Positions 17,387 to 37,014 of a stretch of 64,000 nt of DNA are shown piece by piece (positions within the stretch are counted from its first letter, which is position 1; every line of letters starts with the position of its first letter). The stretch is from assembly GCF_003675875.1 (NCBI RefSeq), contig NZ_RCDI01000004.1, forward strand, positions 248,001 through 312,000, in the 5' to 3' direction. The notes beneath the pieces are model-generated. The model was not told the DNA's origin and ran no database searches. It saw only the letters and a program-made list of their open reading frames with translations. The translations under genes were made by a program, and so were the position numbers. The stretch is from Halostella limicola. Its GTDB lineage: Archaea; Halobacteriota; Halobacteria; Halobacteriales; Natronoarchaeaceae.

Positions 17387-18375
17387 ATGACAGCCCAGCG
17401 GTCAGTCCGTGTTGTTCATCTCGATCCAGACGGCTTCGCGGATCTTGACGTAGAACGGGAACTGTTTGAACGGGAACTCGGAGAAGTTGTATTTGATGAA
17501 GTAGATGCTTCGGGTACAGCTATCGGTGAATGCGTCGGTGAAGCCGACGTTCTCCTAACGCATTATGCGTCAGTTCCGGTTGAGGCGCTGGATGCTACAA
17601 ACTGTTCAGTCGTAGCTAGGTACGCAACTGGCGTAGACGGGATTGACGTGAATGCTGCAACCGAACGCGGCGTTGCTGTAACGAATGTCCCGAGGTATTG
17701 CGATGAGGAGGTGGGCGAACACGTGACCGCTCTGGCGCTTGCACTCCTCCGATCGCTCCCACAAGCTGATGCCCAGACTGCATCGGGGATTGGGACTGGA
17801 GAGAGATACAGCGACCCCGCGCCATCCAAGGACTCACGTTCGGATGTTTCGCCTTTGGACGGAAGGCAGCAGCGGCAGCCGACCGAGCCGCAACTCTCGG
17901 ATTTAATGTGGTGGCCCATGACCCGTATGTCGACGACTCAGATCTACGGAGCAGAGGGATTGAACCCGTCTCATTCGACGATCTCATCGGCAGAAGCGAT
18001 GTCCTCTCACTGCACGCGCCGTTAACTGAAGAGACTGAAGGCGTTATCAATGCGGACCAATTTGAGCGGCTACCTGAGGATGCAATCCTGATCAATACTG
18101 CCCGCGGCGAGATAGTCGATGAGGACGACCTAGTTGAGGCATTGGACAAAGGGACGCTGTCTGGAGCAGGACTTGATGTGCTAGCGGTGGAGCCACCACA
18201 ATCTGAGAATCCTCTCCTCGGTCGAGATGATACCATCGTGACCCCGCATGCAGCCTGGTACTCTGATGAGGCGTTAGAACGAGTCCGTAACCGGGGGACT
18301 AAGAATGCTATCGCAGCACTGCGTGGTGAGGCTACTGAGGGCATCGTTAATCCCGACTCTTTAGAACACCGCTGA
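17387..18375 (+). pseudogene. D-isomer specific 2-hydroxyacid dehydrogenase, frameshifted
   Basis: Two reading frames together make one dehydrogenase. The first runs from ATG 17387 to about 17788 and ends normally in ALLRSLPQADAQTAS. After the G run at 17785-17788 the family sequence continues in another frame: DWDWREIQ, TFGCFAFGRKAAAAA, then VVAHDPYVDD. Catalytic segments INTARGEIVDEDD, DVLAVEPP and VTPHAAWYS are intact. Adding one G restores a protein of about 330 residues. Either a true single-base deletion or a sequencing error explains it. The glycine motif is slightly unusual (GCFAFG). If functional it would link a 2-hydroxy acid with the 2-oxo acid used by the TPP enzyme. Confidence 0.8.
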
Positions 18376-21780: not shown

Positions 21781-22608
21781 TTATTGGAGATTTCCACCAC
21801 CGCTAACGCGTAGAATCGTTCCGGTGACGTAGCTCGCTCGATCGCTGGTTAAGAAGAGGACGCCATCGGCTACATCGGAAGGTTGGCCAAGTCGCCCCAT
21901 CGGCCGTTCGTTGCCCCATTCGTTGAGAACAGACTCTGCAGTCTGATCGGGATCGTCTCCGGCGATTTGTTCGGCTTGGTAATGCACTTGAGAAGTGTGC
22001 GTAATATCGGTTGAAACAGCATTCATTCGGATGCCGTCACTTGCTAGTTCATGAGCCATTCGCCAAGTAAGGCCGTTAACTGCTGTATTAGAAACAGAAT
22101 AGAGCCTCCCACGTCCACTTCGCCGATCAGCCGTCTGACTTGTGACGTTCACTATCGCACCATCAATACCTTCCTTCTTCATGTGGTCAGCAATGAGTTT
22201 AGATGTCTGATACTGGGAACGTACATTGACATCCATCGTGTAATTCCAATCATCAAGAGAGGCCTCAACCATGGATTCTTCCTCGGGCCATACCGCTGCG
22301 TTGTTGACAAGGATATCCACTGTTTCGAACTCATCGATCGCGGTTTCGACCATTGCTTTGACCTCGGCTGACTCTCCCATATCTGCTGGAACACCAATCA
22401 CGGAGCCGGATTCATTGATGTGGGGGGCAGTCTCTAATGATTCGATTTCGTCTGTTGTCTCTTTGACGGAATCTTCACTACGTGAATTAACCAGAACGTT
22501 CGCACCTGATTCATAGAAAGCTTCTGCGATTCCTCGTCCAATACCGCGAGTCGAGCCAGTTACAATGACGGAGCTGTCACTGAAATCATAATTGGCTGTT
22601 CCAACCAT
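21781..22608 (-). CDS. Short-chain dehydrogenase/reductase, catalytic Lys replaced by Asn
   Basis: A 275-residue classical SDR. The cofactor motif TGSTRGIGRGIAEAF is at about residues 17-31, LVNNAAV near 101-107 and NVTSQT near 153-158. The active-site segment reads RLYSVSNTAVNG, so the YxxxK motif has Asn in place of Lys (codon AAT). The Lys normally positions the ribose and lowers the Tyr pKa, so activity may be weak or lost. The C-terminal SGGGN tail is normal. It is the first gene inside the 21.6-37.6 kb segment and is divergent from the glycerate kinase gene. Substrate is unknown; sugar or polyol oxidation would fit. Confidence 0.82.
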   Translation of the reverse strand: MVGTANYDFSDSSVIVTGSTRGIGRGIAEAFYESGANVLVNSRSEDSVKETTDEIESLETAPHINESGSVIGVPADMGESAEVKAMVETAIDEFETVDILVNNAAVWPEEESMVEASLDDWNYTMDVNVRSQYQTSKLIADHMKKEGIDGAIVNVTSQTADRRSGRGRLYSVSNTAVNGLTWRMAHELASDGIRMNAVSTDITHTSQVHYQAEQIAGDDPDQTAESVLNEWGNERPMGRLGQPSDVADGVLFLTSDRASYVTGTILRVSGGGNLQ

Positions 22609-22763: not shown

Positions 22764-22880
22764 ATGCAAACTACCCGCGTGGATAGGAGAGCGGAATCTA
22801 TATCGATCGAAGAAGGAATGATATTGGCATCGTTAGTTCGGAACAATAAGGATGCACCAACACATGGTTACACTTTATGA
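22764..22880 (+). CDS. 38-residue upstream open frame coupled to the glycerate kinase
   Basis: ATG 22764 opens 38 codons (MQTTRVDRRAESISIEEGMI...) whose TGA overlaps the kinase ATG as ATGA. The TATA-like box lies at a suitable distance before it. It may be a leader peptide or simply a short coding gene that couples translation. No family is recognised. An extended reading from 22650 has no support. Confidence 0.35.
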   Translation: MQTTRVDRRAESISIEEGMILASLVRNNKDAPTHGYTL

Positions 22881-24214
22881 CTGAATACACTGAGACGAAG
22901 GTCCGTTTTGAGAGGTCGGAAGATATCACGTCGGAAGAAGCGCTTGCGCTTGATTGTTTAGAAGCAGGTATCGAAGCAGCAGATCCTAATCAAGCTGTAC
23001 AGCGTGCAATTTCCATCGAGGATGGCTCGTTCAAGGTCGGTGGCAATGCGTATGACCTTGATCGGAAGCTTATCGTCGTCGGTGGTGGAAACGCAGCTGG
23101 ACACGCGGCTAGTGCTCTCGAAGATATCCTCGGTGAACACTTAGACCGCGGTGCTGTGGTGACGGACAAATCTGTGGAAACCGACCATATAGAAACGCTT
23201 GATGGCGATCATCCAGTTCCCAGTCAGCAGGGAATGGAAAGTACTGAAACTGTTCTCGATCACGCTCATGGGGCGACTGCGGACGATATCGTTATAGCTG
23301 TCATTGCAGGTGGCGGTAGTGCACTAATGCCTGCTCCTGTTGGGAAACTGTCTATCGATCAACTACAGACAGTCACGGAATCTCTGCTTCAAAGCGGAGC
23401 TGATATCCATGAAATAAACACCGTCAGGAAGCATCTATCGGCAGTTAAAGGTGGGCAGCTCGCGCGAGTCGCTGCACCCGCGACCATAGTCAGCCTAGTC
23501 TTCAGCGACGTCGTCGGAAACGACCCGAGTGTCGTGGCGAGCGGTCCCACGGCACCAGACGACACGACGTTCGAAGATGCCTTAGCAGTGCTCGAACGGT
23601 TCGATATCGATCCCCCTCGTACCGTCGAACAATATCTTCGTGCCGGATCAAGAGGAGACCACCGTGAAACCCCAAACGCCGACGCGTCGTGCTTCGAGTC
23701 TACTTCGCAACACATTATCGCCGACGGATACACAGCGATCTCGGCTGCCGCAGAGAGGGCAGAACAGAACGATTACCGTTTTAGTATTCTTTCTTCCCGG
23801 ATTCGTGGTGAGGCCCGCGAAGCGGCGCGCTCGCACGTCGCTATTGCCGAGGAGGTGATTTCGACAGGGCATCCAGTTGAACCCCCTGTCGTGCTGATAT
23901 CCGGTGGGGAAACGACTGTCACCGTCTCCGGTGATGGCACCGGTGGTCCAAATCAAGAGTTTGCTCTTTCCGCAGGCATCGAAATCGACGATATAGACAT
24001 TACCGTTGCGAGCGTTGACACGGACGGACTTGATGGTTCCACGGACGTGGCCGGTGCGATTGTTAACTGTGATACTGTTGACGATACTTCCAGTGCGAAG
24101 CAAGCACTCCGACGAAACGACGCCTATCCGTATCTGGAAAACGCCGGTGCGCTTCTCTCCTGTGGCCCGACAGGTACGAACGTGAATGACCTGCGCGTGG
24201 TTATCGTTCAATAA
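22877..24214 (+). CDS. Glycerate 2-kinase (MOFRL family), copy 1
   Basis: A 445-residue kinase of the GckA/MOFRL family, which phosphorylates D-glycerate at carbon 2 to give 2-phosphoglycerate. Residues ~65-130 hold LIVVGGGNAAGHAAS and DGDHPVPSQQG, and VIAGGGSALMPAP lies near 152-164. TVRKHLSAVKGGQLAR and VFSDVVGNDPSVVASGPTAP follow. The C-terminal MOFRL domain contains VLISGGETTVTV, GGPNQEFALS and DTDGLDG. It may be coupled to a small upstream frame. It runs head-on into a second kinase of the same family and overlaps it by 7 bases. Confidence 0.88.
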   Translation: MTEYTETKVRFERSEDITSEEALALDCLEAGIEAADPNQAVQRAISIEDGSFKVGGNAYDLDRKLIVVGGGNAAGHAASALEDILGEHLDRGAVVTDKSVETDHIETLDGDHPVPSQQGMESTETVLDHAHGATADDIVIAVIAGGGSALMPAPVGKLSIDQLQTVTESLLQSGADIHEINTVRKHLSAVKGGQLARVAAPATIVSLVFSDVVGNDPSVVASGPTAPDDTTFEDALAVLERFDIDPPRTVEQYLRAGSRGDHRETPNADASCFESTSQHIIADGYTAISAAAERAEQNDYRFSILSSRIRGEAREAARSHVAIAEEVISTGHPVEPPVVLISGGETTVTVSGDGTGGPNQEFALSAGIEIDDIDITVASVDTDGLDGSTDVAGAIVNCDTVDDTSSAKQALRRNDAYPYLENAGALLSCGPTGTNVNDLRVVIVQ

Positions 24215-25554
24215 CTGTCGACTTCGTCGACGATGAGGATATGGATATCGTTAACGTTTGTCCCCGTCGTACCGAGTTTGACGAGGTCGTCACGTCGGGA
24301 GAGATAATCAAAGGTATCGTTAGCATTGAGTGCATCCCAAGCCTCTTGTTGCTCACTACCAGTTTCGCCATCAACGACTGCGCCACCTACTTCTGCAAAC
24401 CCGTCGAAGCCGTCGGTAGCTACACTTGCCAGAGCGACGTTAGTTTTGAGACGCTGCTGGAATTCGATAGCAGAACTTAGGGCGAACACTTGATTTGGAC
24501 CAATATCGGAGCGACGGGGAGTCATGATAGTCGTCTGCCCGCCGGAAATGAGCGCGAGTGGGGGCTCAACTGGGATGTTCGATACGCGGCACTCCTCAGC
24601 AGCGGCGACATGTGCCTTGGCAATTTCGCGTGCGTCTCCACGTAGACGCGACGAAAAGAGTAACGTATTGAGTCCTCTGGTCTGCGCGTGATCGCGTGCC
24701 GCTTTCAGTGCCGTCATTCCGTCGGCGAGAACGTGGTGAGAGACACGGTCAAAAATGGTCTCACCTGGTTTTGGAGTCTCCTCAACCCGTCCCTTGCTGC
24801 CACGTTCAAGATGTCGGTACACGCGATCGGGGACATTAACGTCGTGTTGTCGCAGTACTCGGAGTGCATCATCGAACGTCGTCGTGTCGGGTGCAGTAGG
24901 ACCACTTGCAACTGCCCCGATCGGATTTCCGACGACGTCGCTGAAGACTAGGCTGACTACGTTTGCAGGCGCTGCAGCGGCCGACAGTTTGCCGCCTTTG
25001 ATTGCAGAAAGGTGCTTACGAACGACGTTGATGTCTTCGACTTCTACACCTTCACTAAAGAGAAGACGTGTAAGTTCCTGGAGATCTGTGAGTGAGACAT
25101 CCGCAACTGGTGCCGAGAGAAGCGGACTGCCGCCGCCGGAGACTACCGTCAGGACAAGGTCTTCTCTATCGGCCTCTTCGGTCAATTGTAGAACTCGGCG
25201 TGCACCAGCCATGCACTGTTCGTTCGGAACGGGGTACTCTCCCTCTACAACTTCCACGTGCTGAGTTGGGACCGGATCATCTGTGACGACGACTCCTTCC
25301 GAAATCTGGTCTCCGAGAAGGGTTTCAAGTCTTGCTGCAACGTGGCCTGCGACGTTTCCACCCCCCACAAGAATGATATCCCCGTACTCATGGAGGTCGT
25401 AAGTCGTTCCGTCGATCTGGAGTCGGTTCTCATTCACCGAGAATTTGTCTTTGAGGACTGCCTCAGGATGAGCGGCGTCGATACCCGCCTCGACGCATTC
25501 TATCGCCAACTCCCTTGCGGGAGTGCGAGCGAGTCGGTCTCGGTTTTCGATCAT
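24208..25554 (-). CDS. Glycerate 2-kinase (MOFRL family), copy 2
   Basis: A 448-residue paralogue of the kinase at 22877-24214 with the same blocks: ILVGGGNVAGHVAARL, VVSGGGSPLLSAPV, VVRKHLSAIKGGKLSAAAAP, VFSDVVGNPIGAVASGPTAP and, in the MOFRL domain, ALISGGQTTIMT and VATDGFDGFAE. The N-termini and the spacing differ, so they are not a recent copy of each other. The last bases overlap the convergent kinase gene. One may use D-glycerate and the other a related acid or hydroxypyruvate. It follows the ABC importer genes in the opposite orientation group and may share their regulation. Confidence 0.88.
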   Translation of the reverse strand: MIENRDRLARTPARELAIECVEAGIDAAHPEAVLKDKFSVNENRLQIDGTTYDLHEYGDIILVGGGNVAGHVAARLETLLGDQISEGVVVTDDPVPTQHVEVVEGEYPVPNEQCMAGARRVLQLTEEADREDLVLTVVSGGGSPLLSAPVADVSLTDLQELTRLLFSEGVEVEDINVVRKHLSAIKGGKLSAAAAPANVVSLVFSDVVGNPIGAVASGPTAPDTTTFDDALRVLRQHDVNVPDRVYRHLERGSKGRVEETPKPGETIFDRVSHHVLADGMTALKAARDHAQTRGLNTLLFSSRLRGDAREIAKAHVAAAEECRVSNIPVEPPLALISGGQTTIMTPRRSDIGPNQVFALSSAIEFQQRLKTNVALASVATDGFDGFAEVGGAVVDGETGSEQQEAWDALNANDTFDYLSRRDDLVKLGTTGTNVNDIHILIVDEVDSY

Positions 25555-25614: not shown

Positions 25615-26484
25615 TCAATTCGCCAGCTGGAAGCCCCGTAGCAGGTACCGCTGCAGGAAGTAGACTAGTAGGAGCGGAGGAACCGCAATAAGGGCGCTTG
25701 CGGACAGAATGGCACCCCAGTCAACAGCGTTCGACTCTGTGAAGAAGAGTACACCAACCGGAAGTGTTCGAAGCGACGGATCCTGCATGAGGATATTCGC
25801 CATCGTGAAGTCATTCCAGGAAACGGCAAACGAGAAGATGGCGACTGCGACGAGCCCCGGTTTCGCCATGGGTAGTGCGATACCGAAGAAACTCTGCATA
25901 CGACCAGCGCCGTACATCCACGCGGACTCTTCTAGACTGATCGGTATCGTCTGGAAGAACTGCCACATCAACCAGACGCTAAACGGAACAGTGAGTGCAG
26001 ACTGTGCGAGAATGAGTCCGACGTACGTGTTTGTGAGACGAAGTGAGAACCACAGCAGGAACATCGGCATCACGAGCAGGATCGGCGGATACATATACGA
26101 GAATATAGTTGTCTGTGCGATCTGTTTCTTGAACGGCAGTTCAAGTCGGGTCAACGCGTAGCCTGCCAGCGTTGAGGTTATGATCGTGACAGCCATTACG
26201 CCGATCGCGACGATGATGCTGTTCAGATAGAACCTCAGGAACTGGGAATCGAACAGAAGTGCGTTGAAGTTTTCGAGCGTTACCTCGTTCGGCAGGTAGA
26301 ATACTTCTCCCGAGTAGAGTTCCGATCGAGGTTGGAGTGCAGACTTGGCCATCCAGTAGATCGGGAAGAAGTACACGATACTCATGGCTACGAGAAGACC
26401 ATAGAGTGAATAGCGCTTGAGCTTCTTCCGGCGATCCCAATCTACTGCTTCCCCAGTTCCGATGATGTCGTCGACAACGCTCAT
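25615..26484 (-). CDS. Carbohydrate ABC transporter permease, MalG/UgpE-like
   Basis: A 289-residue permease with six predicted helices. The EAA loop reads EESAWMYGAGRMQSFFGIALP. The N-terminal soluble stretch (MSVVDDIIGTGEAVDWDRRKK) precedes the first helix. It is the last gene of the operon binding protein, permease 1, permease 2. Its start overlaps the stop of the preceding permease gene by one base. These subunits usually import sugars, sugar alcohols or glycerol phosphates in haloarchaea. Confidence 0.87.
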   Translation of the reverse strand: MSVVDDIIGTGEAVDWDRRKKLKRYSLYGLLVAMSIVYFFPIYWMAKSALQPRSELYSGEVFYLPNEVTLENFNALLFDSQFLRFYLNSIIVAIGVMAVTIITSTLAGYALTRLELPFKKQIAQTTIFSYMYPPILLVMPMFLLWFSLRLTNTYVGLILAQSALTVPFSVWLMWQFFQTIPISLEESAWMYGAGRMQSFFGIALPMAKPGLVAVAIFSFAVSWNDFTMANILMQDPSLRTLPVGVLFFTESNAVDWGAILSASALIAVPPLLLVYFLQRYLLRGFQLAN

Positions 26485-27425
26485 TATGTCGCCACCTCCT
26501 CGGCCGGATTGAATATACGCATATAGGCGATTCCACCCAAGACGAGCAGGAAGAACAGAAGCGTTGACGCGGCGAGCGCGAGCCCCATCCGATACTCAAC
26601 GAAGGCGATCTCATAGATGAAAATTGGGAGCGTCGTGGTGGCTTCTGCCGGTCCCCCTCTGGTGAGAATCCAGATGATATCGAACTTGTTGAACATCCAG
26701 ATGCCTCGAAGCAGTAACACCAGCAGAATGACGCTACGAATGTTTGGTAGCGTTACATCGCGGAACTGCTCCCAAGCATTTGCGCCGCACATTCTCGCTG
26801 CTTCGTAGTGGGTTTCGGGAATCGACTGTAAACGTGCAAGTACCATCATAACGATGAACGCCGTGAACTTCCAAGAGTTTGCAACGATTAATGATGGCAT
26901 CGCCCACGTTTCACTTCCGAAGAAAGATACCGGATCGTTGGCAAGACCCGTATCTTGGGCGAGGTTACTCATCACGCCGAGCTGCGGGTGACCCATCCAC
27001 GTGAATACCATTCCGACTACGATAGTGGGAATGAGATACGGGAGTAATGCCACTGCTCGAGCCAGAGCGATTCCTTTCAATTGTTTATTCAGGAGTAACG
27101 CTGTCGGGATGGCAAGCAGAAGCTGAAGGAACGTTGATCCCAGCGCGAAGTAGAGTGAGCGCCCGAGCGAATCCCAGAACCCAGCATCTCCGAAGAGGAG
27201 TGCTTCGTAGTTCTGGAACCAGATGAATTCTTGATCGAGACTGAGTGTTCCCATCGCGAACAGGGAATTGTACAGGGCCCAAGCGACTGGGAGAAACACG
27301 ACGAATACGACGAGCGCGACGACTGGGAACAAGAAGGTCGCACCAAGGAGCCTATCACTCTCTATCCATCGCTCGCGGATGCCATCGGGCATGTATTCAA
27401 CAAACTTTGCTGTAGAGATCGTCAT
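26484..27425 (-). CDS. Carbohydrate ABC transporter permease, MalF/UgpA-like
   Basis: A 313-residue permease with six predicted helices and an EAA loop EAARMCGANAWEQFRDVTLP. It starts within the last 4 bases of the binding-protein gene and ends at the first base of the next permease gene, so the three are translationally coupled. Together with the UgpC-like ATPase at 28975-30123 they make one complete importer. Confidence 0.87.
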   Translation of the reverse strand: MTISTAKFVEYMPDGIRERWIESDRLLGATFLFPVVALVVFVVFLPVAWALYNSLFAMGTLSLDQEFIWFQNYEALLFGDAGFWDSLGRSLYFALGSTFLQLLLAIPTALLLNKQLKGIALARAVALLPYLIPTIVVGMVFTWMGHPQLGVMSNLAQDTGLANDPVSFFGSETWAMPSLIVANSWKFTAFIVMMVLARLQSIPETHYEAARMCGANAWEQFRDVTLPNIRSVILLVLLLRGIWMFNKFDIIWILTRGGPAEATTTLPIFIYEIAFVEYRMGLALAASTLLFFLLVLGGIAYMRIFNPAEEVAT

Positions 27426-28819
27426 TCTTTGAGGCTCTGGAGAGTATCTCGAAGGTTATCTGCCGCACTGTTCACGGCTTGTTCCGGTGCGACACCGTTG
27501 ATATTCATCTCATAGAGAAGGGTCCCGAGATGCTGGCTCGTGAATAGTGACGGACCGTATTCATTGTACGGATCAGTCTCGCCACCCCAGCTAACACCCT
27601 TCTCGAAGGACTCTCGAACCACTTCGAGATCTCGCTCTGAGAAGTTACCCGCGATGAAATCATCTTCTCTATAAGCATCCATCTCCACGATACTCGTCAT
27701 CGTCGGGAAGTTGTGGACAGGCCCAACGGATGTCAGGAAGTCGATGACACGGTTCTCTCTGGCCGTGAATTCGATAAACTGTCTTGCTTCTTCCTTGTAT
27801 TCTGCGTCCTGCATCAGTACCCAGCCGCCGCCATTGTTGATGAAACTCTCTGTTCCGTTATGAACGGGGAAGTGGGGTCGAACGTTCTGCGTCTGATCAG
27901 GCGTATTATTGATGACCTGCAGCTTGGCGCGAGGTCCGTAGATGCAGTGTGCTGAATTCCGGGAGACATACGACTGGAGGATGTCGCCCCATTCGAAGTC
28001 TCCTGCCTCCGGTGAATACTGGTGGAGTTCATTCAGGAACTCGGCGGTCTCGATCGCCTTTTGCTTATTTTCGCCCTGATCAAGTGCGATCTGGACTTCC
28101 CCGTCCTGTCGGGTTGCGACGTTCCCACCGTTGCTCTTCAGGAAATTCCAGAACGTGAACGATGAAAGTTCTGAGCTGGCGCTCGGGACAACAGTCCCAA
28201 ACATATCGTCGGAGTTGATCTCTTGTGCGATTTCGAGGTATTCGTCCCACGTGAGTCCCGCCGAACTCTCAAGATTGTACTCTTGGTAAACGTCCTCCCA
28301 ATACCAGACCTGTGTCGGATTCGTCCACAGCGGAACAGTGTAGTCGTCTCCATCTATTGCCAGTCGAACGTTCTCTGGTATGCTACCATTGTATTCCTGT
28401 TCGAACGTTCCGATCAGATCTTCGACAGACTCCAACTGATCGCGGGTTGCGAGCTGTGCCGCTTGTCCCGTGTCAAGCGTGGCCAGCTCGGGCGTATTCC
28501 CTGTCTGGATAAGAGTCGAGATACGTTCGGTCGGCGACAGACTGGTATAGTCCATCGTGACTGTGGTACCGGTCTCCTCTTCGAAGTCAGAAGCCATCTG
28601 GTCGAACCACTCTTTTGCCGCTTCGTTCGTTTCACCAGTAACGACGTGGACTTCCTCTTCACCACCATTACTACCGCCGCCTCCGAGCAGCCTCACGCAG
28701 CCCGAAAGCGCAGCGATCGTACTGCCTGCACTTGCTGCGAGGAATGAACGCCGACCAACTTTCGATCGCGATTCACTCGTCTGTCCATGGGCATCTCTAC
28801 CCGCACCTGCATCTGCCAT
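27422..28819 (-). CDS. Extracellular solute-binding lipoprotein, UgpB/MalE-like
   Basis: A 465-residue type 1 sugar-binding protein. A twin-arginine signal GRRSFLAAS (residues 22-30) leads to a lipobox ALSGC with Cys 41 and a Gly/Asn linker, so it is Tat-exported and lipid-anchored. Mature blocks such as VTMDYTSLSPTERISTLIQT and ANNGGGW-like INNGGGWVLMQDA are typical of carbohydrate-binding proteins. It begins the importer operon. A TATA-like TATTTAATATTAAT lies about 30 bases upstream, which predicts a leaderless transcript. Confidence 0.87.
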   Translation of the reverse strand: MADAGAGRDAHGQTSESRSKVGRRSFLAASAGSTIAALSGCVRLLGGGGSNGGEEEVHVVTGETNEAAKEWFDQMASDFEEETGTTVTMDYTSLSPTERISTLIQTGNTPELATLDTGQAAQLATRDQLESVEDLIGTFEQEYNGSIPENVRLAIDGDDYTVPLWTNPTQVWYWEDVYQEYNLESSAGLTWDEYLEIAQEINSDDMFGTVVPSASSELSSFTFWNFLKSNGGNVATRQDGEVQIALDQGENKQKAIETAEFLNELHQYSPEAGDFEWGDILQSYVSRNSAHCIYGPRAKLQVINNTPDQTQNVRPHFPVHNGTESFINNGGGWVLMQDAEYKEEARQFIEFTARENRVIDFLTSVGPVHNFPTMTSIVEMDAYREDDFIAGNFSERDLEVVRESFEKGVSWGGETDPYNEYGPSLFTSQHLGTLLYEMNINGVAPEQAVNSAADNLRDTLQSLKE

Positions 28820-28843
28820 ACAGCCAGTACCATTCGGGACGAC

Positions 28844-28857
28844 TATTTAATATTAAT
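28844..28857 (-). promoter_or_regulatory. TATA box for the sugar-importer operon
   Basis: TATTTAATATTAAT is centred about 30 bases before the start of the binding-protein gene on the minus strand. That spacing predicts transcription starting at or next to the start codon, as is common in haloarchaea. Confidence 0.55.
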
Positions 28858-28916
28858 GGTTATTTCTACGCCCTCCCCTCACTATTCTTTTAGGTCAGTC
28901 TCCCCCCATCGGAGGA

Positions 28917-28923
28917 TTTATAT
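28917..28923 (+). promoter_or_regulatory. TATA box for the importer ATPase gene
   Basis: TTTATAT lies about 27 bases before a palindrome starting at 28946. The predicted transcript start therefore falls on the palindrome, about 29 bases before the ATPase start codon. Confidence 0.5.
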
Positions 28924-28945
28924 CGGGCGGGGAAGCTTACTTGCA

Positions 28946-28962
28946 AGTGGTTCTCAACCACT
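28946..28962. promoter_or_regulatory. Palindrome AGTGGTT-CTC-AACCACT, likely operator
   Basis: Perfect 7-base arms around CTC. It sits at the predicted transcript start of the ATPase gene, 12 bases before the start codon. This is where a repressor would block initiation. The IclR protein encoded at 36313 is one candidate binder. Confidence 0.5.
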
Positions 28963-28974
28963 ATAGAGGACACT

Positions 28975-30123
28975 ATGGCAGCAATTCAAATCGATAACCT
29001 GCGAAAGGTGTATCGCGTCGCCGGGAATGGCGAAGTCGCCGTTGACGGCATCGACATGACTATCCAAGACGGCGAGTTCGTCACTATCGTCGGCCCAAGT
29101 GGTTGCGGGAAAACAACGACCCTCCGTTGTATCGCAGGGCTCGAAGAACCGACTGAGGGGACAATCACGATCGGGAGCGAAGAGGTGACAAAGAAACCGC
29201 CGCAGCGACGGAACCTTTCCATGGTCTTTCAGGATATCGCGTTATACCCGCACATGACTACGCGGGATAATATCGCTTATCCAATGAAACTCGAAGACGT
29301 TCCAAAGGACAGCCAACAGGAGAAGATCCAGAAGGCGACAGAAACGCTCCAGATTAGTGAGCTACTCGATAAGATGCCGAGTGAACTCTCTGGTGGTCAA
29401 GCTCAGCGAGTTTCGCTCGCGCGTGCCATCGTCCGAGACCCAGCTGCCTTCCTGCTAGACGAACCGATGAGTGACCTTGACGCGAAGCTGAAGATGGAGA
29501 TGCGAAAAGAGTTCGGTAAGATTCACCGAGAACTCGACGCGACGATGGTCTACGTTACTCACGATCAGGAAGAGGCAATGACGCTCTCCGACAAACTCGC
29601 GGTCATGAACGACGGCCGCGTCGAGCAGTTCGGGAGTCCAGATCACATTTACCAGAATCCAGCTAACGTATTCGTCGCACAGTTCATCGGAAGTCCGAGT
29701 ATCAATCTCCTCGACGTGACGCTCGATTCTGTTACGTCCAAAGAAGTAACTGTCAAACTAGAGACTGGAGAACGCATCTCCTTCCCGTTTGACCCAGATT
29801 TCAGTGCGGAACCGGACGATCTGCCTCAAAACTTGGTTCTTGGATTCCGGCCGCGCCATACGAGAGTTTTCGCTCCTGAGGACGCCGACACTGGTATCCA
29901 GGCCAAGACAGTCCTCAACGAGCCTATCGGAGACGAAGTCATCCAGTATCTCGAGGGCCCCCAAGGCGAACTCCGGGCAGTAATTCCACGTAACGAGATA
30001 ATCGACGAAGACGAGGAGACTCTCGTCCAAGTACAGACATCGGGCACGTTCCTCTTCGACCGCGAATCCGGTGAGCGAGTCATTCGAGGTCGCGAGGAGA
30101 CGCAGCCGGTTCTTATATCGTAG
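28975..30123 (+). CDS. ABC transporter ATP-binding protein, UgpC/MsmX-like
   Basis: A 382-residue ATPase. Walker A GPSGCGKTT is near 41-49, the signature LSGGQAQRVSLARA near 139-152, Walker B AFLLDEPMSDLD near 160-171, then VTHDQEEAMTLS. The C-terminal ~130 residues form OB-type regulatory folds as in UgpC and MalK. It is divergent from the operon for its binding protein and permeases, sharing a 155-base control region with two TATA boxes and one palindrome. Confidence 0.88.
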   Translation: MAAIQIDNLRKVYRVAGNGEVAVDGIDMTIQDGEFVTIVGPSGCGKTTTLRCIAGLEEPTEGTITIGSEEVTKKPPQRRNLSMVFQDIALYPHMTTRDNIAYPMKLEDVPKDSQQEKIQKATETLQISELLDKMPSELSGGQAQRVSLARAIVRDPAAFLLDEPMSDLDAKLKMEMRKEFGKIHRELDATMVYVTHDQEEAMTLSDKLAVMNDGRVEQFGSPDHIYQNPANVFVAQFIGSPSINLLDVTLDSVTSKEVTVKLETGERISFPFDPDFSAEPDDLPQNLVLGFRPRHTRVFAPEDADTGIQAKTVLNEPIGDEVIQYLEGPQGELRAVIPRNEIIDEDEETLVQVQTSGTFLFDRESGERVIRGREETQPVLIS

Positions 30124-30145
30124 CCGTTTCTGGATATTTTCTGTA

Positions 30146-31201
30146 CTACTTCGGGAACATAACGTCGTATTGGCGTCCTAAGTCTTCTAACGTCCCCACC
30201 ACGCCAGGGCCGAGCGGAATCCCGCTTCGTTCTCGTTCTTTACGGGTTTCTGCCTCAATCTCCCCAGGTAGCTTGACCTCTTTGATGCCCTCTTGTGTTC
30301 GGGTCGCCTTCAGTTCCTCTACTAAACGGTCGATATCAGCCTTGAATGCGTCAATATCTCGGAAAGCACTAGGATCGATCGCACCGACGAAGTGTCCGAC
30401 CCTCTGGGGCCGTGAGTAATCGTCGTAGAGTGAATCAACCTCGGGGCTTGTCCCCATCGACGAGAGAACGCCTGAACAGACATCAACGAGGAGTCCGAGT
30501 CCGTAGCCCTTTGGACCACCCGCTGGGCGGAGTGCGTGGACTTCTTCAGGAGCAGTTGTGGGTTGGCCTTCTTCATCGATCGCCCAGTCATCCGGTATCA
30601 TTTCTCCTTCTTCTTCGGCAACATGTATTTTGCCTTTTGCGACGACGCTGGTAGCCATATCCAGGGTAATTGGGAATGAGAGATTCGTTGGAATAGAGTA
30701 GCCTAGCGGATTCGTCCCGAAGAACGGATCTATTCCGCCGAAGGGTGCGACGTTCGGCCCGACGTTAGTCATCGCGAGACCAATACAATCCACGGAAGCA
30801 GCCTGCTGAGTGTAATAGGCTGCTGTGCCGAAATGGTTGCTGTTCTGGACGATTGCGAACGCGGTGCCGGTTTCCGCTGCAGCTTCTACGACGGTATCCA
30901 TCGCTTTCGCAGTAGCAACCTGACCGAGGCCGTCGTCGGCATCCACAATGACGGCCGAGGGAGAAGGACGTTTCACTGTCATCTCGGGATCGGCATTGAA
31001 GCCGCCTCCTTCGATGTTTTTCACATACGGCTCTAGTCTCACGACTCCGTGTGAGTCGACTCCGCGAAGGTTCGCGGTGACGAGTGCGTCGCTGACGATT
31101 CGTGCGTGCTCGCTATTGAGTCCTGCTTCTTCGAAGACCTCTCGGGCGAATTGCTCGAGAGACTCTGCAGAGAGGCGGACGTGTTCCTCTGGCTCAGACA
31201 T
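30146..31201 (-). CDS. Ldh-family NAD(P)-dependent oxidoreductase (malate/lactate dehydrogenase type 2)
   Basis: A 351-residue protein of the family that holds malate, L-lactate, sulfolactate and ureidoglycolate dehydrogenases, unrelated to the classical LDH fold. Diagnostic parts are ANLRGVDSHGVVRLEPYV near 44-61, NSNHFGTAAYYTQQA near 121-135 and DPFFGTNPLGYSIPT near 158-172. These enzymes oxidise 2-hydroxy acids to 2-oxo acids. In this cluster a C3 or sugar acid is the likely substrate. A small dyad CAGTGC-N4-GCACTG lies just upstream. Confidence 0.85.
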   Translation of the reverse strand: MSEPEEHVRLSAESLEQFAREVFEEAGLNSEHARIVSDALVTANLRGVDSHGVVRLEPYVKNIEGGGFNADPEMTVKRPSPSAVIVDADDGLGQVATAKAMDTVVEAAAETGTAFAIVQNSNHFGTAAYYTQQAASVDCIGLAMTNVGPNVAPFGGIDPFFGTNPLGYSIPTNLSFPITLDMATSVVAKGKIHVAEEEGEMIPDDWAIDEEGQPTTAPEEVHALRPAGGPKGYGLGLLVDVCSGVLSSMGTSPEVDSLYDDYSRPQRVGHFVGAIDPSAFRDIDAFKADIDRLVEELKATRTQEGIKEVKLPGEIEAETRKERERSGIPLGPGVVGTLEDLGRQYDVMFPK

Positions 31202-31211
31202 GATTGTGACT

Positions 31212-31227
31212 CAGTGCTGGCGCACTG
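31212..31227. promoter_or_regulatory. Dyad CAGTGC-N4-GCACTG before the Ldh-family gene
   Basis: Perfect 6-base arms around TGGC, 10 bases before the minus-strand start at 31201. A TATA-like TTTATTAG lies further upstream at about 31250. It may be an operator; the arms are short, so chance cannot be excluded. Confidence 0.3.
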
Positions 31228-31284
31228 TAGCAATCGGACTCAGCATTACCGAACTAATAAAGTCCGGGGTTACGGCAGAGATAA

Positions 31285-32304
31285 CTACGTTCGGATGTCG
31301 TACCCGGCGTCAGCGAGCGCCGAGTTAGGAAGTTCTTCCCCGTGAAGCCCTGCTACGATGTTCTCTGCAGCCATACGAGCCATCTTATCTCGGGTTCCGA
31401 CACTCGCGCTGCCAAGATGCGGTAAAACGACAACTCGTTCCGGCGCGAGGTTGAGTAGAGGATGGTCCCCTGGCAGGGGTTCGGGATCAGTGACATCCAG
31501 ACCTGCCCGTTTGATTTCGCCGGAATCGAGTGCTTGGATCAGAGCATCTGTATCGACGACCTCTCCCCGGCTCGTATTGATGAGAACGGCGTCTTCCTTC
31601 ATCCGTTCGAACTCCACAGTACTGACGAGCCCCTCGGTTTCCTTCGTTAGCGGGACGTGAAGCGAGATGAAGTCAGAGCACTCGAACACGACATCGCGAT
31701 CAACATATTCAATGTCAACCCCGTGGTTTTCCAATTCAGCCTCCGTCTCCGGTTTGCGCGATCGGCTGGAGTAGATTACGTCCATACCGAAGCCCGCACC
31801 CCGCCGAGCGACAGCTGTGCCGATGTTGCCTAGACCGACGATACCGAGCGTCGTATCGTGAACGTCCTGACCGGTAAGCAATGTTGGCTGCCATGTTTCC
31901 CACCGCCCCTCCCGGACGTAGTGGTGACCTTCGATGGTCCGACGAGCACATGTCATCATGAGCGACCAAGCGAGGTCTGCCGTCGTTTCAGTAAGTACGC
32001 CAGGTGTGTGACCGACATCGATCCCCCGCTCTGCCGCAGCATCTAGATCGATGTGGTCGTAGCCGACAGAACATGTGCTGACGACTTCCAGGGAATCAGA
32101 TGCGTCGAGGACCTCTGCATCGATGTTATCGGTGAGCAGACAGAGGAGCGCATCTGCTTCGAGTTCCTGTAGGCTGGTGATAATACGTTCCTTCGATGGA
32201 GGGAGTTTTTTCTCCCACGTATGTACCTCGTAATCTGCTTCGAGCATATCGAGGCCTGCTTCAGGGATCTCACGAGTTACGTAGACGGCTGGGCGTGAAA
32301 CCAT
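31285..32304 (-). CDS. 2-hydroxyacid dehydrogenase, glyoxylate/hydroxypyruvate reductase type
   Basis: A 339-residue D-isomer dehydrogenase. The nucleotide motif GIVGLGNIGTAVARR is near 153-167. Catalytic Arg is in INTSRGEVVD, Glu in DVTDPEPLPGDHP and His in VLPHLGSASVGTR. The N-terminal YVTREIPEAGLDML is typical of glycerate dehydrogenases. It would reduce hydroxypyruvate to D-glycerate, which the two kinases could phosphorylate. It lies 83 bases before the Ldh-family gene on the same strand. Confidence 0.87.
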   Translation of the reverse strand: MVSRPAVYVTREIPEAGLDMLEADYEVHTWEKKLPPSKERIITSLQELEADALLCLLTDNIDAEVLDASDSLEVVSTCSVGYDHIDLDAAAERGIDVGHTPGVLTETTADLAWSLMMTCARRTIEGHHYVREGRWETWQPTLLTGQDVHDTTLGIVGLGNIGTAVARRGAGFGMDVIYSSRSRKPETEAELENHGVDIEYVDRDVVFECSDFISLHVPLTKETEGLVSTVEFERMKEDAVLINTSRGEVVDTDALIQALDSGEIKRAGLDVTDPEPLPGDHPLLNLAPERVVVLPHLGSASVGTRDKMARMAAENIVAGLHGEELPNSALADAGYDIRT

Positions 32305-32408
32305 ACACCTCGGACTGGATCTGACTTGGAGAATAATCTGGAGAAAGAGGACTTTCTTGCCAATAAAGGAGGTACATTTACATCTTCAGGGTCGGTGGTT
32401 CGTTACGT

Positions 32409-33122
32409 ATGTCGGAAGAGTTGACCATCGAGTACGAGGGCCTCTCAGCATTCAGCATTGAAAGCAGCAATACAAGCTTGATCGTAGATCCGTGGCTCGA
32501 ACCAGCTTGGATAGACGCTACCGTCGATGACTTCGAACACGTCGATTACGTCTTCGTCACTCATGGAGCACATGACCACCTCGGATCTACATACGAGATT
32601 GCAGATCGTTCAGGTGCCACCGTCATTACGGAGCCGGCTGTCGCAGACCATCTTACCAGCCTTGGTTTATCCGACGATCAGGTGCAGTCCATGGTGTGGG
32701 GTAACCGTCTTGAACTATCAGAGTTGGGTGTCCGTGCACTGGAAACGAGTCACATCTCCTACTTCGAGTCGCAGGGTGAACACGTGACAGGAACAGCACT
32801 TGGATTCCTCTTTGAATTCGAGTCCCGGACCATTTACTACCTTGGTGACACTGCCTTGTTCTCAGACTTGGAAATGTTCGGAGAGCGATATGATCCGGAT
32901 GTAGCGCTTCTTCCGGTCGGTGCAGCACCAGGCGCTCTTGCCCCTCTCCCTCCAGACGAAGCAGCGACAGCTGCCGATTGGCTGGATATCACGACAGCGA
33001 TCCCTGTTCATTATGTTCCAGATGATGGTACACCCGAAGTATTCGAAGCTGAACTTGGCGACCTTGACTCTGACGTTAACTCGTTCATTCTCGAACCGGG
33101 TGAATCACTGACACTCTCATAA
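32409..33122 (+). CDS. MBL-fold metal-dependent hydrolase, UlaG/UPF0173-like
   Basis: A 237-residue metallo-beta-lactamase-fold protein. The metal site starts with FVTHGAHDHLGS near residues 49-60, and IYYLGDTALFSDLEMF near 139-154 gives the central Asp. ITTAIPVHYVPDDG holds the last His. UlaG-type members are lactonases of sugar acids (L-ascorbate 6-phosphate), and UPF0173 members have no settled role. A lactonase step would suit this cluster. A TATA-like ACATTTACATC lies about 35 bases before the start. Confidence 0.75.
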   Translation: MSEELTIEYEGLSAFSIESSNTSLIVDPWLEPAWIDATVDDFEHVDYVFVTHGAHDHLGSTYEIADRSGATVITEPAVADHLTSLGLSDDQVQSMVWGNRLELSELGVRALETSHISYFESQGEHVTGTALGFLFEFESRTIYYLGDTALFSDLEMFGERYDPDVALLPVGAAPGALAPLPPDEAATAADWLDITTAIPVHYVPDDGTPEVFEAELGDLDSDVNSFILEPGESLTLS

Positions 33123-33181
33123 CGGAGTTCTCTGCCAAAACCCAAGCACTTTTCCGGTTCACAAACTACTTCAGAATCGTT

Positions 33182-34279
33182 ATGGCAAACCAAGCCAAGG
33201 CTGCAGTCCTGCGAGAGATACGCAAACCGTCAACCGAACCTCTCTCCGTGGAGGAGTTCGATATTCCAGATGTAGGTGATGAGGATATCCTACTGAAGAT
33301 GGATATGGCAGGAGTTTGTGGAACTGATGTCCATATCCTCCACGACAAAGTTCCGGGCGTGGTAACACCATCTATACTTGGCCATGAGAACGTTGGCACG
33401 ATAGAAGAACTGGGAGAGAATGTAGAGACAGACGCACGTGGCGAACCACTCTCCGTCGATGACCGTATCGTAGTACTGCCTGCATCCTGCCGAGAGTGCT
33501 ACAACTGTGTTATCCTCAATGACGAGTCGAAATGCGAGAACCGAACAAGTGTCGGAGGATGGCTGGATGCCGATGAACACCCACATTTTGTCGGAGGGTT
33601 CGGTGAGTACATCTTCCTCACGGACAACTACGAGGTCGTAAAGATCCCGGATGATATCTCCGATGAAGCTGTTGTGATGGGTGATGCCATCCGAATTGCT
33701 GTTCACGGGTTCGATATTATCGATGGGATCGATTATGGCGCCGACGTGTTGGTCCAAGGTCCCGGTCCAGTCGGACTAGCAGCAATCGCGATGGCTGAGG
33801 ATAGCGGCGCAGGCCAGATTATCGTCACTGGAGCACCGGATGAACGCTTGGAACTTGCAAAGAAATTCGGTGCCGACCATACTATCAGCATCGACAACGT
33901 CGAGGAGGAGGACCGAATCGACCAGGTGTTGGACCTAACTGATGGCCGGGGTGTCGATACGACGCTTGAGGCAACTGGCTTCCCACCGGCGGTCCGAGAG
34001 GGATTAGAAATGACCGGCATTAACGGCCAGTACCTCATTATGGGTCACTACGGCGACGCAGGAACCGTCGAACTCAACCCACACGAGATCAATCGGAAGC
34101 AGATCTCAGTTGATGGTGCGTGGTCTGCAGCGACGAAGCACTTCGTCCAAGCACTACCACTGCTCCGTCGCTTCCCGTGGGAGGAGGCAGTGACTGATTA
34201 TTACTCACTGGATGAGGTGAACGAAGCCATCCAAGCTATGGAAGGGATGGAGACCGTCAAAGCTGTTATCGAGCCGTAA
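33182..34279 (+). CDS. Zinc-dependent alcohol dehydrogenase (MDR family)
   Basis: A 365-residue medium-chain dehydrogenase. Catalytic zinc ligands appear in AGVCGTDVHIL and ILGHENVG. The structural zinc cysteines are in SCRECYNCVILNDESKC. The Rossmann part has VQGPGPVGLAAIAMAEDSGA. Members oxidise sugar alcohols, sorbitol, threonine or sugars. It follows the UlaG-like gene by 59 bases on the same strand and may be co-transcribed with it. Substrate is not evident. Confidence 0.85.
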   Translation: MANQAKAAVLREIRKPSTEPLSVEEFDIPDVGDEDILLKMDMAGVCGTDVHILHDKVPGVVTPSILGHENVGTIEELGENVETDARGEPLSVDDRIVVLPASCRECYNCVILNDESKCENRTSVGGWLDADEHPHFVGGFGEYIFLTDNYEVVKIPDDISDEAVVMGDAIRIAVHGFDIIDGIDYGADVLVQGPGPVGLAAIAMAEDSGAGQIIVTGAPDERLELAKKFGADHTISIDNVEEEDRIDQVLDLTDGRGVDTTLEATGFPPAVREGLEMTGINGQYLIMGHYGDAGTVELNPHEINRKQISVDGAWSAATKHFVQALPLLRRFPWEEAVTDYYSLDEVNEAIQAMEGMETVKAVIEP

Positions 34280-34290
34280 CGTTTCGTTGG

Positions 34291-35292
34291 CTACTCCTTT
34301 ACTTCTGGAAGAACCTCATCACCTAACCGTTCGATAGCTGTGAGCGGTTCGGGGCTTTTATTCGAATAAACGAGTGAATCGAACTCGTCGGCATAGTCGA
34401 GTGACGTTTCGATGATCGGTTCCGTTTCCGTTGTGATAAAGAAAGTATCCTCAAGGACTTCCTCGCGGAGCATACGACCATGTTTCTCGATGACGCGAGG
34501 ATCAGCAATACCCTGATCGAAGAAGATATCCATTGCGTTTCCGCCCCATCGACGGCATTCTTCGATCAGTGCATCATGGTCATCACCGAGCGCGAAGGGA
34601 AGTTCAAGTACGAGTTCAATATCATCTGGGTCACGATTGGCGCGTTCGGCACCCTTCCGCAGGCCGCGTTTTAGAGCATCAATGCGGTCCTGATCAGGTT
34701 GTCCGATAGTCCACAACGCATCAGCGTATTGACCAGCGACAGCAGCTGATTGTGGACCGAATGCAGACATATAAATCGGAGGTGATGGGTCAGGGTTCGT
34801 GTAGAGTTTCGCCTCCTCAAGCGACCAGAATTCGCCGTCATAGGTATTGAACCCATCTTCATCCCAGAGCATTCGAAGGACCTTCAGGCCTTCCCGCGTG
34901 CGTTCACGGCGCTCTGGGTACTCTGGCCAGTCGTAGCCAAGGGGGATCGTGTTCATTGCCTCTCCAGTACCAACACCTAGTCGAGAACGACCCGGATACA
35001 TCGCCTGTAGTGTAGCGAACGCTTGTGCAACTATACCGGGGTGATACCGTTTCAGAATGGGTGTCACAGCTGTTCCAAGAGTAACTTCGTCGGTTACTTG
35101 ACCAGCTGCTGCAAGCCACATCCATGCAAATCCACAGTGGGCATCCGTATCGAACCAAGGATGGAAGTGGTCGCTGGTCCAAATGGAATCAAAACCTACA
35201 TCTTCTATCAACTGGGCCTGTGTGATCAACTCGTTCGGATGATACGACTCCTGCAGGGTCTGGAATCCGATCTCTTGGAAGCCAGGCATCAT
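34291..35292 (-). CDS. LLM-class F420-dependent oxidoreductase, Fgd-like
   Basis: A 333-residue luciferase-like TIM barrel. The N-terminal FDSIWTSDHFHPWF near 34-47 and LGVGTGEAMNTIP resemble F420-dependent glucose-6-phosphate and related sugar dehydrogenases. Blocks YPERRERTREGLKVLRMLW and PPIYMSAFGPQSA are also typical. The family oxidises a hydroxyl or hemiacetal and gives F420H2. It is convergent with the zinc dehydrogenase gene. In this cluster a sugar or sugar-acid derivative is the most natural substrate. Confidence 0.8.
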   Translation of the reverse strand: MMPGFQEIGFQTLQESYHPNELITQAQLIEDVGFDSIWTSDHFHPWFDTDAHCGFAWMWLAAAGQVTDEVTLGTAVTPILKRYHPGIVAQAFATLQAMYPGRSRLGVGTGEAMNTIPLGYDWPEYPERRERTREGLKVLRMLWDEDGFNTYDGEFWSLEEAKLYTNPDPSPPIYMSAFGPQSAAVAGQYADALWTIGQPDQDRIDALKRGLRKGAERANRDPDDIELVLELPFALGDDHDALIEECRRWGGNAMDIFFDQGIADPRVIEKHGRMLREEVLEDTFFITTETEPIIETSLDYADEFDSLVYSNKSPEPLTAIERLGDEVLPEVKE

Positions 35293-35392
35293 CCTTACGG
35301 AGGATGACTACCCCTGTAAAACTACGTTTCCGAGCAGGCATTTCGTTTGCCGGCGACAGCGCACCCATTCAATCAGACGAAGAACTACTCGA

Positions 35393-36145
35393 TTAGATTT
35401 CCTTGATATCGTGTTTGTTATACCGCTCTTGGAAGTTATTTATATCATATATATACTCTCCCTCTTTTATTCGTTCTAGCATTTCTTCTTCAGCATCTAA
35501 TTTCTCCTGAGCGGCGGCAAGTACTTGCTCCGCATTTTCTGGTTTGACAATGGCGACGCCTTCATCATCTCCAACGACGATATCACCAGGCTCCACGGTC
35601 AGGCCACCACAGGAGACAGCCACATTGATTGAACCAGGATGTGACTTGTAGGACCCTTTTGGACTCACAGCACGCGCGTAGACGGGATAATCGAGCTCTT
35701 CGATCTCTTCGATATCCCGTACAGCGCCATCCAGAACGGTCCCTTTGAGTCCATGTGTTTTACAGGAGGTAGATGCGAGTTCGCCCCACAGACCGGCCTC
35801 AGTGTACTCATTTGCGTCGATAACTAAGATATCGCCAGGTTCTGCCATTGTGATGGCCTTATGTGCCATCAAATTATCTCCTGGGTATGTTTTCACGGTG
35901 AGAGCAGTGCCGGCCATTCTGGCATCATCATACACGGGCTTGATGGAGTGTGACATTGTATTCTCGTATTTCGATGTCACATCTGAAAGCACTGCTGTGG
36001 GAATCTCTTTGAACTTCTCAACAAGATCTTTCGGTGGTCGGTCTATATCTGAGATTACCTTGTGCATCGGTACACGGAATCCTGTGCGGACAGCGACTTT
36101 AATCCCTGGCTTTTCTGTGCTAATTGCCACCATGAGTCTTCCCAC
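35393..36145 (-). CDS. RraA-like protein (4-hydroxy-4-methyl-2-oxoglutarate aldolase family)
   Basis: A 250-residue RraA-fold protein. The active-site pattern is visible as GLWGELASTSCKTHGLKG followed by TVLDGAVRDIEEI, with the Arg-Asp pair of the aldolases. GDIVVGDDEGVAIVK closes the core. Family members cleave 4-hydroxy-2-oxo acids or decarboxylate oxaloacetate. Here a retro-aldol step that produces pyruvate or hydroxypyruvate is plausible. Starts at 36145, 36133 or the Met of MHKVISDID are all possible. It is divergent from the IclR gene, a common layout for a regulator and its target. Confidence 0.8.
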   Translation of the reverse strand: MGRLMVAISTEKPGIKVAVRTGFRVPMHKVISDIDRPPKDLVEKFKEIPTAVLSDVTSKYENTMSHSIKPVYDDARMAGTALTVKTYPGDNLMAHKAITMAEPGDILVIDANEYTEAGLWGELASTSCKTHGLKGTVLDGAVRDIEEIEELDYPVYARAVSPKGSYKSHPGSINVAVSCGGLTVEPGDIVVGDDEGVAIVKPENAEQVLAAAQEKLDAEEEMLERIKEGEYIYDINNFQERYNKHDIKEI

Positions 36146-36312
36146 GATACGGGATAAAGTCTAGAAATATCATTTTCTATGAAGGCAGTAGAACCCTTCT
36201 ATCGTGCATTTCTTTATTTCTTACTTAATACTCCTAAATATATCCTGAAAGCCTAAAACTCATTCCGTATTATGGGACAAGGTTTTTGTTACCGTCTGTT
36301 CACACTTCTTGT

Positions 36313-37014
36313 ATGGTAAACGCGATACGGAAGTCAGTGCGGATAATTGAGGCACTTGCTGAACATCAAATGACAACAATCTCTACATTAGAGAAAGAGC
36401 TTGAGATTCCCAAGAGTACTCTCCACCGTCACCTACAAACAATGGAACAGGAGGGACTTGTCGTCAATGAAGCCGGTCAGTATCGGCTAGCACTTCGATT
36501 TCTCAATTTTGGCGAGCAAGCTCGCCGACAAAATAGTCTCTTGACCATTGCAGAAGTCGAATTAGACGATATTACGGAAGAGACTGGCCATGAATCCTAT
36601 CTTGTGGTTGCAGAACACGGCCACGCAGTGTACATCTATGGATCAAACCAATCCCAGTCCGTTAAGGGAGAGATCTTCCCCGGGAAGTATACTCCCTTAC
36701 CAGCTACTGCTGCCGGACGCGTACTTTTGGCTGGGATGTCCTTATCTACCAATGACGAACTGTTGGAGAGTGATTCGTCTGAACTTCCCCTTCAATCAAT
36801 TCGAAACCAGAACTATGCTCTAAAAACCGGAGATGAAGAGACAAGCCGTTGGGAGATTGCTGTACCAATTTGTAATCAAGATGGTCACATCCAAGCAGCA
36901 GTAAGTGTCTCTGGTGATATGGCCGACCTGGGTCGTGAAACCATCAGTGATAGACTCATCGAGCGTGCTCAACAGGCGGCACACCGAATTGAAATAAAGT
37001 CTGGATATACGTAA
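36313..37014 (+). CDS. IclR family transcriptional regulator
   Basis: A 233-residue IclR protein. The winged helix covers residues ~3-65, with the recognition part IPKSTLHRHLQTMEQEGLV. The effector domain follows, with GHESYLVVAEHGHAVYIYG and AAGRVLLAGMS. I chose ATG 36313; a TTG at 36286 would add nine residues that do not fit the family. It is divergent from the RraA-like gene and is the only regulator inside the 21.6-37.6 kb segment, so it probably controls the sugar-acid genes. Confidence 0.87.
   Translation: MVNAIRKSVRIIEALAEHQMTTISTLEKELEIPKSTLHRHLQTMEQEGLVVNEAGQYRLALRFLNFGEQARRQNSLLTIAEVELDDITEETGHESYLVVAEHGHAVYIYGSNQSQSVKGEIFPGKYTPLPATAAGRVLLAGMSLSTNDELLESDSSELPLQSIRNQNYALKTGDEETSRWEIAVPICNQDGHIQAAVSVSGDMADLGRETISDRLIERAQQAAHRIEIKSGYT

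Follow-up and report, generated by a model that had tools for sequence, protein, structure and literature searches.

Related systems and the extent of the cluster

Two described systems bear comparison with the gene cluster examined here, which occupies part of a 64,000-nucleotide stretch of the haloarchaeon Halostella limicola (the window, C5:248001-312000 within the 4.12-Mb genome). In Agrobacterium vitis, the tartrate utilization (ttu) clusters take hydroxypyruvate to 2-phosphoglycerate through a class II glycerate kinase, and all class II glycerate kinases characterized by 2007 yield 2-phosphoglycerate (PMC2063504). The window cluster resembles ttu in this lower branch and differs from it, in a comparison drawn from the literature only, in substrate entry and transport. 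The second system, the oxidative pentose pathway of Haloferax volcanii, is a haloarchaeal case of non-phosphorylative sugar oxidation with a lactonase but proceeds via dehydratases to alpha-ketoglutarate (PMC8551123; PMC9795676). We propose tentatively, with confidence just short of even, that the Halostella cluster is a substrate-induced catabolic unit that would carry a sugar-derived compound to hydroxypyruvate, then to D-glycerate, and finally to 2-phosphoglycerate.

An earlier note on this DNA had drawn a sugar-acid pathway across 25615-36145. Open reading frame (ORF) and family searches widen the cluster to ~21.8-37.0 kb of the window, adding an SDR-family dehydrogenase, two class II (MOFRL) glycerate kinases, and an IclR-family regulator. 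The enzymes that the note named lie where it had put them, except that the kinases, which are class II glycerate kinases (PF13660 and PF05161), fall outside its interval; the SDR and IclR genes had been missed. Family searches bear out the CUT1 ABC importer, the Ldh-family and zinc-dependent dehydrogenases, the RraA-like lyase over 35393-36145, and the hydroxypyruvate reductase as to type, though the last scores under its model's cut-off. The features are as follows, with identities referring to G229, a haloarchaeal genome of another family than the window's.

21781..22608, minus strand: SDR-family dehydrogenase, glucose-1-dehydrogenase-like subfamily (PRK07231, 214.4 bits, cut-off 215)
22877..24214, plus strand: class II (MOFRL) glycerate 2-kinase, copy 1 (PF13660 and PF05161; solved relatives 1x3l and 2b8n)
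24208..25554, minus strand: class II (MOFRL) glycerate 2-kinase, copy 2, which converges on copy 1 (PF13660 and PF05161)
25615..26484, minus strand: CUT1 ABC permease, UgpE/GlcU-like (80% identical in G229)
26484..27425, minus strand: CUT1 ABC permease, UgpA/MalF-like (70% identical in G229)
27422..28819, minus strand: extracellular solute-binding protein (family 1) with a lipoprotein-like N terminus (PF01547)
28975..30123, plus strand: ABC ATPase of the UgpC/MalK type, transcribed away from the binding-protein gene (PRK11650, 383 bits; 75% identical in G229)
30146..31201, minus strand: Ldh2-family (malate/L-lactate/ureidoglycolate type) 2-hydroxyacid dehydrogenase (PF02615, 401 bits; 75% identical in G229)
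31285..32304, minus strand: glyoxylate/hydroxypyruvate reductase-type D-2-hydroxyacid dehydrogenase (HADH; PRK13243, 357.2 bits, cut-off of 455 not reached)
32342..32357, unstranded: palindrome AGAAA-N6-TTTCT, candidate operator between the divergent HADH and metallo-beta-lactamase-fold genes
32409..33122, plus strand: UPF0173 metallo-beta-lactamase-fold hydrolase (PRK00685, 153.5 bits, cut-off 144)
33182..34279, plus strand: zinc-dependent medium-chain dehydrogenase (Zn-ADH; PF08240/PF00107)
34291..35292, minus strand: luciferase-like monooxygenase family (LLM) protein, putatively an F420-dependent dehydrogenase; accessory, and missing from the G229 cluster
35393..36067, minus strand: RraA-family (HMG/CHA aldolase-like) lyase (PF03737; 73% identical in G229; ORF as called extends to 36145)
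36163..36178, unstranded: palindrome AGAAA-N6-TTTCT, candidate operator between RraA and IclR
36313..37014, plus strand: IclR-family regulator (PF01614/PF09339; an IclR protein, 33% identical, at the corresponding place in G229; ORF as called starts at 36286)

On comparative sequence grounds the cluster is a real unit, more than a chance grouping, because its gene order is kept in G229 and because its solute-binding protein and Zn-ADH occur in the same 2 of the 391 genomes of the class that were sampled. At E<=1e-60 for the binding protein and E<=1e-85 for Zn-ADH, the only matches are in the host's own genome and in G229, where the proteins are 73% and 79% identical, respectively, and at these thresholds neither is present in the window's four congeners or in four other members of its family. 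Twelve gene-set positions have G229 counterparts. The binding protein, permeases, ATPase, Ldh2, hydrolase, Zn-ADH, RraA, SDR, and second kinase are 57-80% identical, with order and strands kept; the SDR gene (74%) again stands at the corresponding end, and the convergent kinase pair is retained, with copy 2 at 59% and the kinase in the position of copy 1 only 47% identical to it. The regulator slot is again filled by an IclR protein, of only 33% identity. The G229 cluster lacks an LLM gene, has another hydroxyacid dehydrogenase in another place, and carries an additional AEC-type permease. Comparison with G229 also suggests that the true starts of RraA and of the IclR regulator are probably ~36067 and ~36313, respectively.

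The proposed route and its competitors

The core of the cluster is not confined to Halostella and G229. RraA, hydroxyacid dehydrogenase, and glycerate kinase recur together independently in other haloarchaea, in Alphaproteobacteria, and in Bacilli, in some cases with Ldh2. The window HADH is 65-68% identical to genes adjoining both RraA and glycerate kinase in two haloarchaeal genomes (G221 and G131), and the three genes stand together on Agrobacterium fabrum pAt. Azospirillum and Mesobacillus combine RraA, Ldh2, 2-hydroxyacid dehydrogenase, and glycerate kinase, and in Alkalihalophilus RraA and Ldh2 are accompanied by D-glycerate dehydrogenase but not by the kinase. When plasmids were searched with the Ldh2 of Alkalihalophilus, RraA lay nearby in all five of the best records, the query's own included. 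The cluster of Azospirillum sp. TSA2s reads RraA, Ldh, alcohol dehydrogenase, aldehyde dehydrogenase, TRAP transporter, glycerate kinase, and D-2-hydroxyacid dehydrogenase. Unlike the window, these bacterial Ldh2 modules have other regulators and carry an iron alcohol dehydrogenase and an aldehyde dehydrogenase in place of Zn-ADH, SDR, and UPF0173; in Azospirillum and Alkalihalophilus the transporter is of the TRAP type, whereas the window's is CUT1. Because they carry an aldehyde dehydrogenase, an aldehyde product is favored for the bacterial modules. Literature searches, which covered few subscription journals, returned no paper describing the module or RraA with a hydroxypyruvate reductase.

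From the observed gene content, synteny, residue motifs, and module recurrence, we infer the substrate, the individual reactions, and their order as follows. The substrate, most likely an aldonic acid or a sugar first oxidized to one, would be taken up by the CUT1 ABC importer. Ldh2, possibly aided by the SDR, Zn-ADH, and UPF0173 hydrolase, would oxidize the sugar acid at C2 to a 2-keto acid that retains its 3- and 4-hydroxyls, and the RraA-family class II aldolase would cleave this by a retro-aldol reaction to hydroxypyruvate and a shorter aldehyde. Hydroxypyruvate reductase would then form D-glycerate, and the class II glycerate kinase would deliver 2-phosphoglycerate into lower glycolysis. 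The LLM protein may perhaps supply an F420-linked redox step on the aldehyde or alcohol by-product rather than the entry, and the IclR-type regulator probably governs the divergent units via AGAAA-N6-TTTCT.

The choice of chemistry turns on an absence. No dehydratase was identified among the cluster proteins by family searches of its predicted proteins, which are the basis wherever a gene is said here to be lacking from the cluster, nor was one found among the identified genes of the G229 cluster. A non-3-deoxy keto acid giving hydroxypyruvate would for this reason fit better than a pyruvate-forming route, and since Ldh2 is also clustered with RraA, oxidation at C2 followed by retro-aldol cleavage would be the simplest chemistry. 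RraA exceeds the cut-off of PRK09262 (195.7 bits against 179) and falls under that of TIGR02798 (175.9 against 304.5); the motif E-x20-R-D is present in 9/9 RraA proteins compared, so that the R-D pair that is catalytic in HMG/CHA aldolase is kept. DUF4147 and MOFRL domains are found in both kinases, and the nearest solved chains to HADH are glyoxylate and glyoxylate/hydroxypyruvate reductases. Ldh2 scores under every equivalog cut-off, and the SDR may possibly act in sugar or sugar-acid oxidation. The half of the earlier note's route that ran from retro-aldol cleavage through C3 salvage to 2-phosphoglycerate is plausible, and the recurring architecture supports it better than that note could have known; its F420 entry is not supported, and its lactonase step is possible but weak.

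Several points weigh against this route. Characterized RraA-type aldolases release pyruvate, and hydroxypyruvate release is our supposition; the first motif position, Asp in the solved HMG/CHA aldolase 3noj, is Glu in RraA. The position of Thermotoga maritima Lys47, an active-site residue of its glycerate kinase, is Asn in both window kinases; Asn also occupies it in four other haloarchaeal RraA-locus kinases, the exception being one of the two G229 kinases. The 2-hydroxyacid dehydrogenase is not at the window's site in G229, where a 33% relative adjoins the SDR gene. No aldehyde dehydrogenase for the second product was found in the cluster, unlike in the bacterial Ldh2 modules, and the RraA-linked Ldh2 proteins do not form a single group in the Ldh2 tree (three changes). 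Finally, the pattern AGAAA-N6-TTTCT was selected after inspecting inverted repeats, so that its presence in two divergent promoters is no more than suggestive of co-regulation.

A wider form of the proposal is possible but doubtful: a cross-domain, non-phosphorylative route in which RraA would split hydroxypyruvate, not pyruvate, off a 2-keto sugar acid without any dehydratase step, and an F420-linked enzyme would here act on the second product. If the proposal is true, it would give a testable function to the recurring module of RraA, 2-hydroxyacid dehydrogenase, and glycerate kinase (in some cases with Ldh2), which is publicly annotated by family names only, and would mean that haloarchaea have, besides their known oxidative pentose pathway, a sugar-acid route that needs no dehydratase.

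The main rival keeps the same four enzymes and changes the substrate. In a tartrate-type path for a C4 hydroxy-dicarboxylate, Ldh2 would form oxaloglycolate from tartrate or a similar acid, which RraA, as a beta-keto-acid decarboxylase, would convert to hydroxypyruvate, with D-glycerate and 2-phosphoglycerate following. HMG/CHA aldolase has oxaloacetate decarboxylase activity besides its cleavage of keto acids (PMC5065237), a class II glycerate kinase acts downstream of hydroxypyruvate in the A. vitis tartrate clusters (PMC2063504), and related RraA clusters have carboxylate-type transporters (Tct or TRAP). The whole C3 branch would be explained without a second product, hence without need of an aldehyde dehydrogenase. 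The window transporter, however, is of the CUT1 sugar type, and the SDR, Zn-ADH, and hydrolase would be left without a role; we consider this path unlikely.

Another reading, which we judge rather unlikely, accepts a sugar-like compound but has RraA take a pyruvate-forming keto acid supplied by a dehydratase that is encoded elsewhere in the genome, the kinases serving glycerate or tartronate semialdehyde much as in glucarate catabolism. A Halorubrum plasmid with enolase-superfamily and DHDPS-family genes beside a related Ldh2 speaks for it; the lack of a dehydratase in the window cluster and among the identified G229 genes, noted above, speaks against it.

The LLM protein, the hydrolase, and a further rival

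The earlier note had placed an Fgd-like F420 enzyme at the start of the pathway, forming a lactone that a UlaG-like hydrolase would open, with the remaining steps following. The LLM gene does follow RraA on its strand, at a distance of 100 bp, and is probably cotranscribed with it, and the protein keeps the catalytic His40, Trp44, and Glu109 of Fgd1 as H42, W46, and E111. The use of F420 is possible because the host carries cofE, a gene of F420 synthesis. However, the phosphate-binding Lys198, Lys259, and Arg283 of Fgd are replaced by Q198, D259, and T283. The protein misses the Fgd model TIGR03554 (188.7 bits, cut-off 420), scores 204.1 bits against the F420-dependent LLM family TIGR03557 (cut-off 210.4), and has as its best solved relative the F420-dependent alcohol dehydrogenase Adf (1rhc, 246 bits), ahead of Fgd1 (3b4y, 184 bits). 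With both it shares the fold family and the catalytic His/Trp/Glu.

Conservation points the same way. At the G229 cluster, which keeps the pathway genes, there is no LLM gene, ADH being followed directly by RraA ~90 bp away, and among the candidates scored no G229 protein matches LLM at E<=1e-80. LLM relatives were also considered as evidence of a sugar-acid context and were rejected, since the four haloarchaeal loci examined (L111-L114) lie in unrelated surroundings. An F420-dependent sugar entry, which would have been new to the earlier note's author for haloarchaea, was a tempting claim; we have removed it as unsupported and regard the pathway built on it as highly improbable. We conclude from these comparisons that the LLM protein is an accessory, lineage-specific, putatively F420-linked dehydrogenase rather than the pathway entry. 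A second LLM-family gene (PF00296) lies at 16183-17169 of the window, in a different neighborhood.

The lactonase step fares little better. The hydrolase is a UPF0173 protein rather than UlaG (PRK11709, 23.7 bits against a cut-off of 306), its best solved relatives are UPF0173 proteins, and its HxHxDH metal motif is altered to HxAHDH (THGAHDH), one histidine being replaced, in both the window and G229. Solved UPF0173 proteins read THGHFDH and THGHGDH, and two relatives encoded close to other haloarchaeal LLM genes keep THGHADH. A lactonase role is possible but weakly supported, a guess, because of the family assignment and the altered motif. The pentonolactonase of H. volcanii belongs to the SMP30 superfamily, not the metallo-beta-lactamase fold (PMC9795676).

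An allantoin/glyoxylate-type pathway, with Ldh2 as ureidoglycolate dehydrogenase and with HADH and glycerate kinase as the glycerate arm of glyoxylate use, is hardly credible: the best named models for Ldh2 are ureidoglycolate dehydrogenases and HADH is glyoxylate reductase-like, but Ldh2 stays under the curated cut-off (PRK15025, 312.8 bits, cut-off 356), no ureide-cleaving gene is among those identified in the cluster, and the CUT1 importer and RraA would go unexplained.

Regulation, replicon, and neighboring loci

The palindrome AGAAA-N6-TTTCT occurs twice in the window against 0.04 expected and three times in the whole genome, while a backward control gave 0; the third copy lies inside an ORF that reads, by eye, like an MgtE-type magnesium transporter. 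A scan for a 16-mer common to most intergenic regions did no better than shuffles. In G229, the RraA/IclR intergenic region holds two copies of GTTTCGCC-N2-ATGAAAC (L100 9799-9815 and 9922-9938), a possible operator distinct from the repeat in the window.

The cluster is probably plasmid-borne. LLM matches with identical scores close to both ends of the contig (G000:C5 1956-2861 and 447939-448844) suggest that C5 is a circular megaplasmid of ~446 kb with terminal redundancy. From this redundancy and from the lack of the binding protein and ADH, at the thresholds above, in eight relatives of the host we infer horizontal spread. GC content is 0.50-0.56 over approximately the first 40 kb of the window, cluster included, and 0.62-0.65 beyond, with the compositional boundary at ~40000, just right of the cluster. 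At 17387-18025 lies a truncated 2-hydroxyacid dehydrogenase that has the N-terminal catalytic domain only, runs on into unrelated sequence, and looks broken.

The same replicon carries a second catabolic locus (L142, G000:C5 ~355.6-368.0 kb), with genes for an IclR regulator, a secreted protein whose start is twin-arginine-like, an AEC-type permease, a third glycerate kinase, two Zn-ADHs, and an NAD-epimerase-like protein. It resembles haloarchaeal RraA/IclR/epimerase neighborhoods, but no RraA was identified in it. A widespread haloarchaeal RraA neighborhood (L103, L115-L117, and L122) comprises IclR, Zn-ADH, an epimerase-like NAD(P)-oxidoreductase, a metallo-beta-lactamase-fold hydrolase, and a Tct transporter, and several of these loci also carry type I 3-dehydroquinate dehydratase-like genes.

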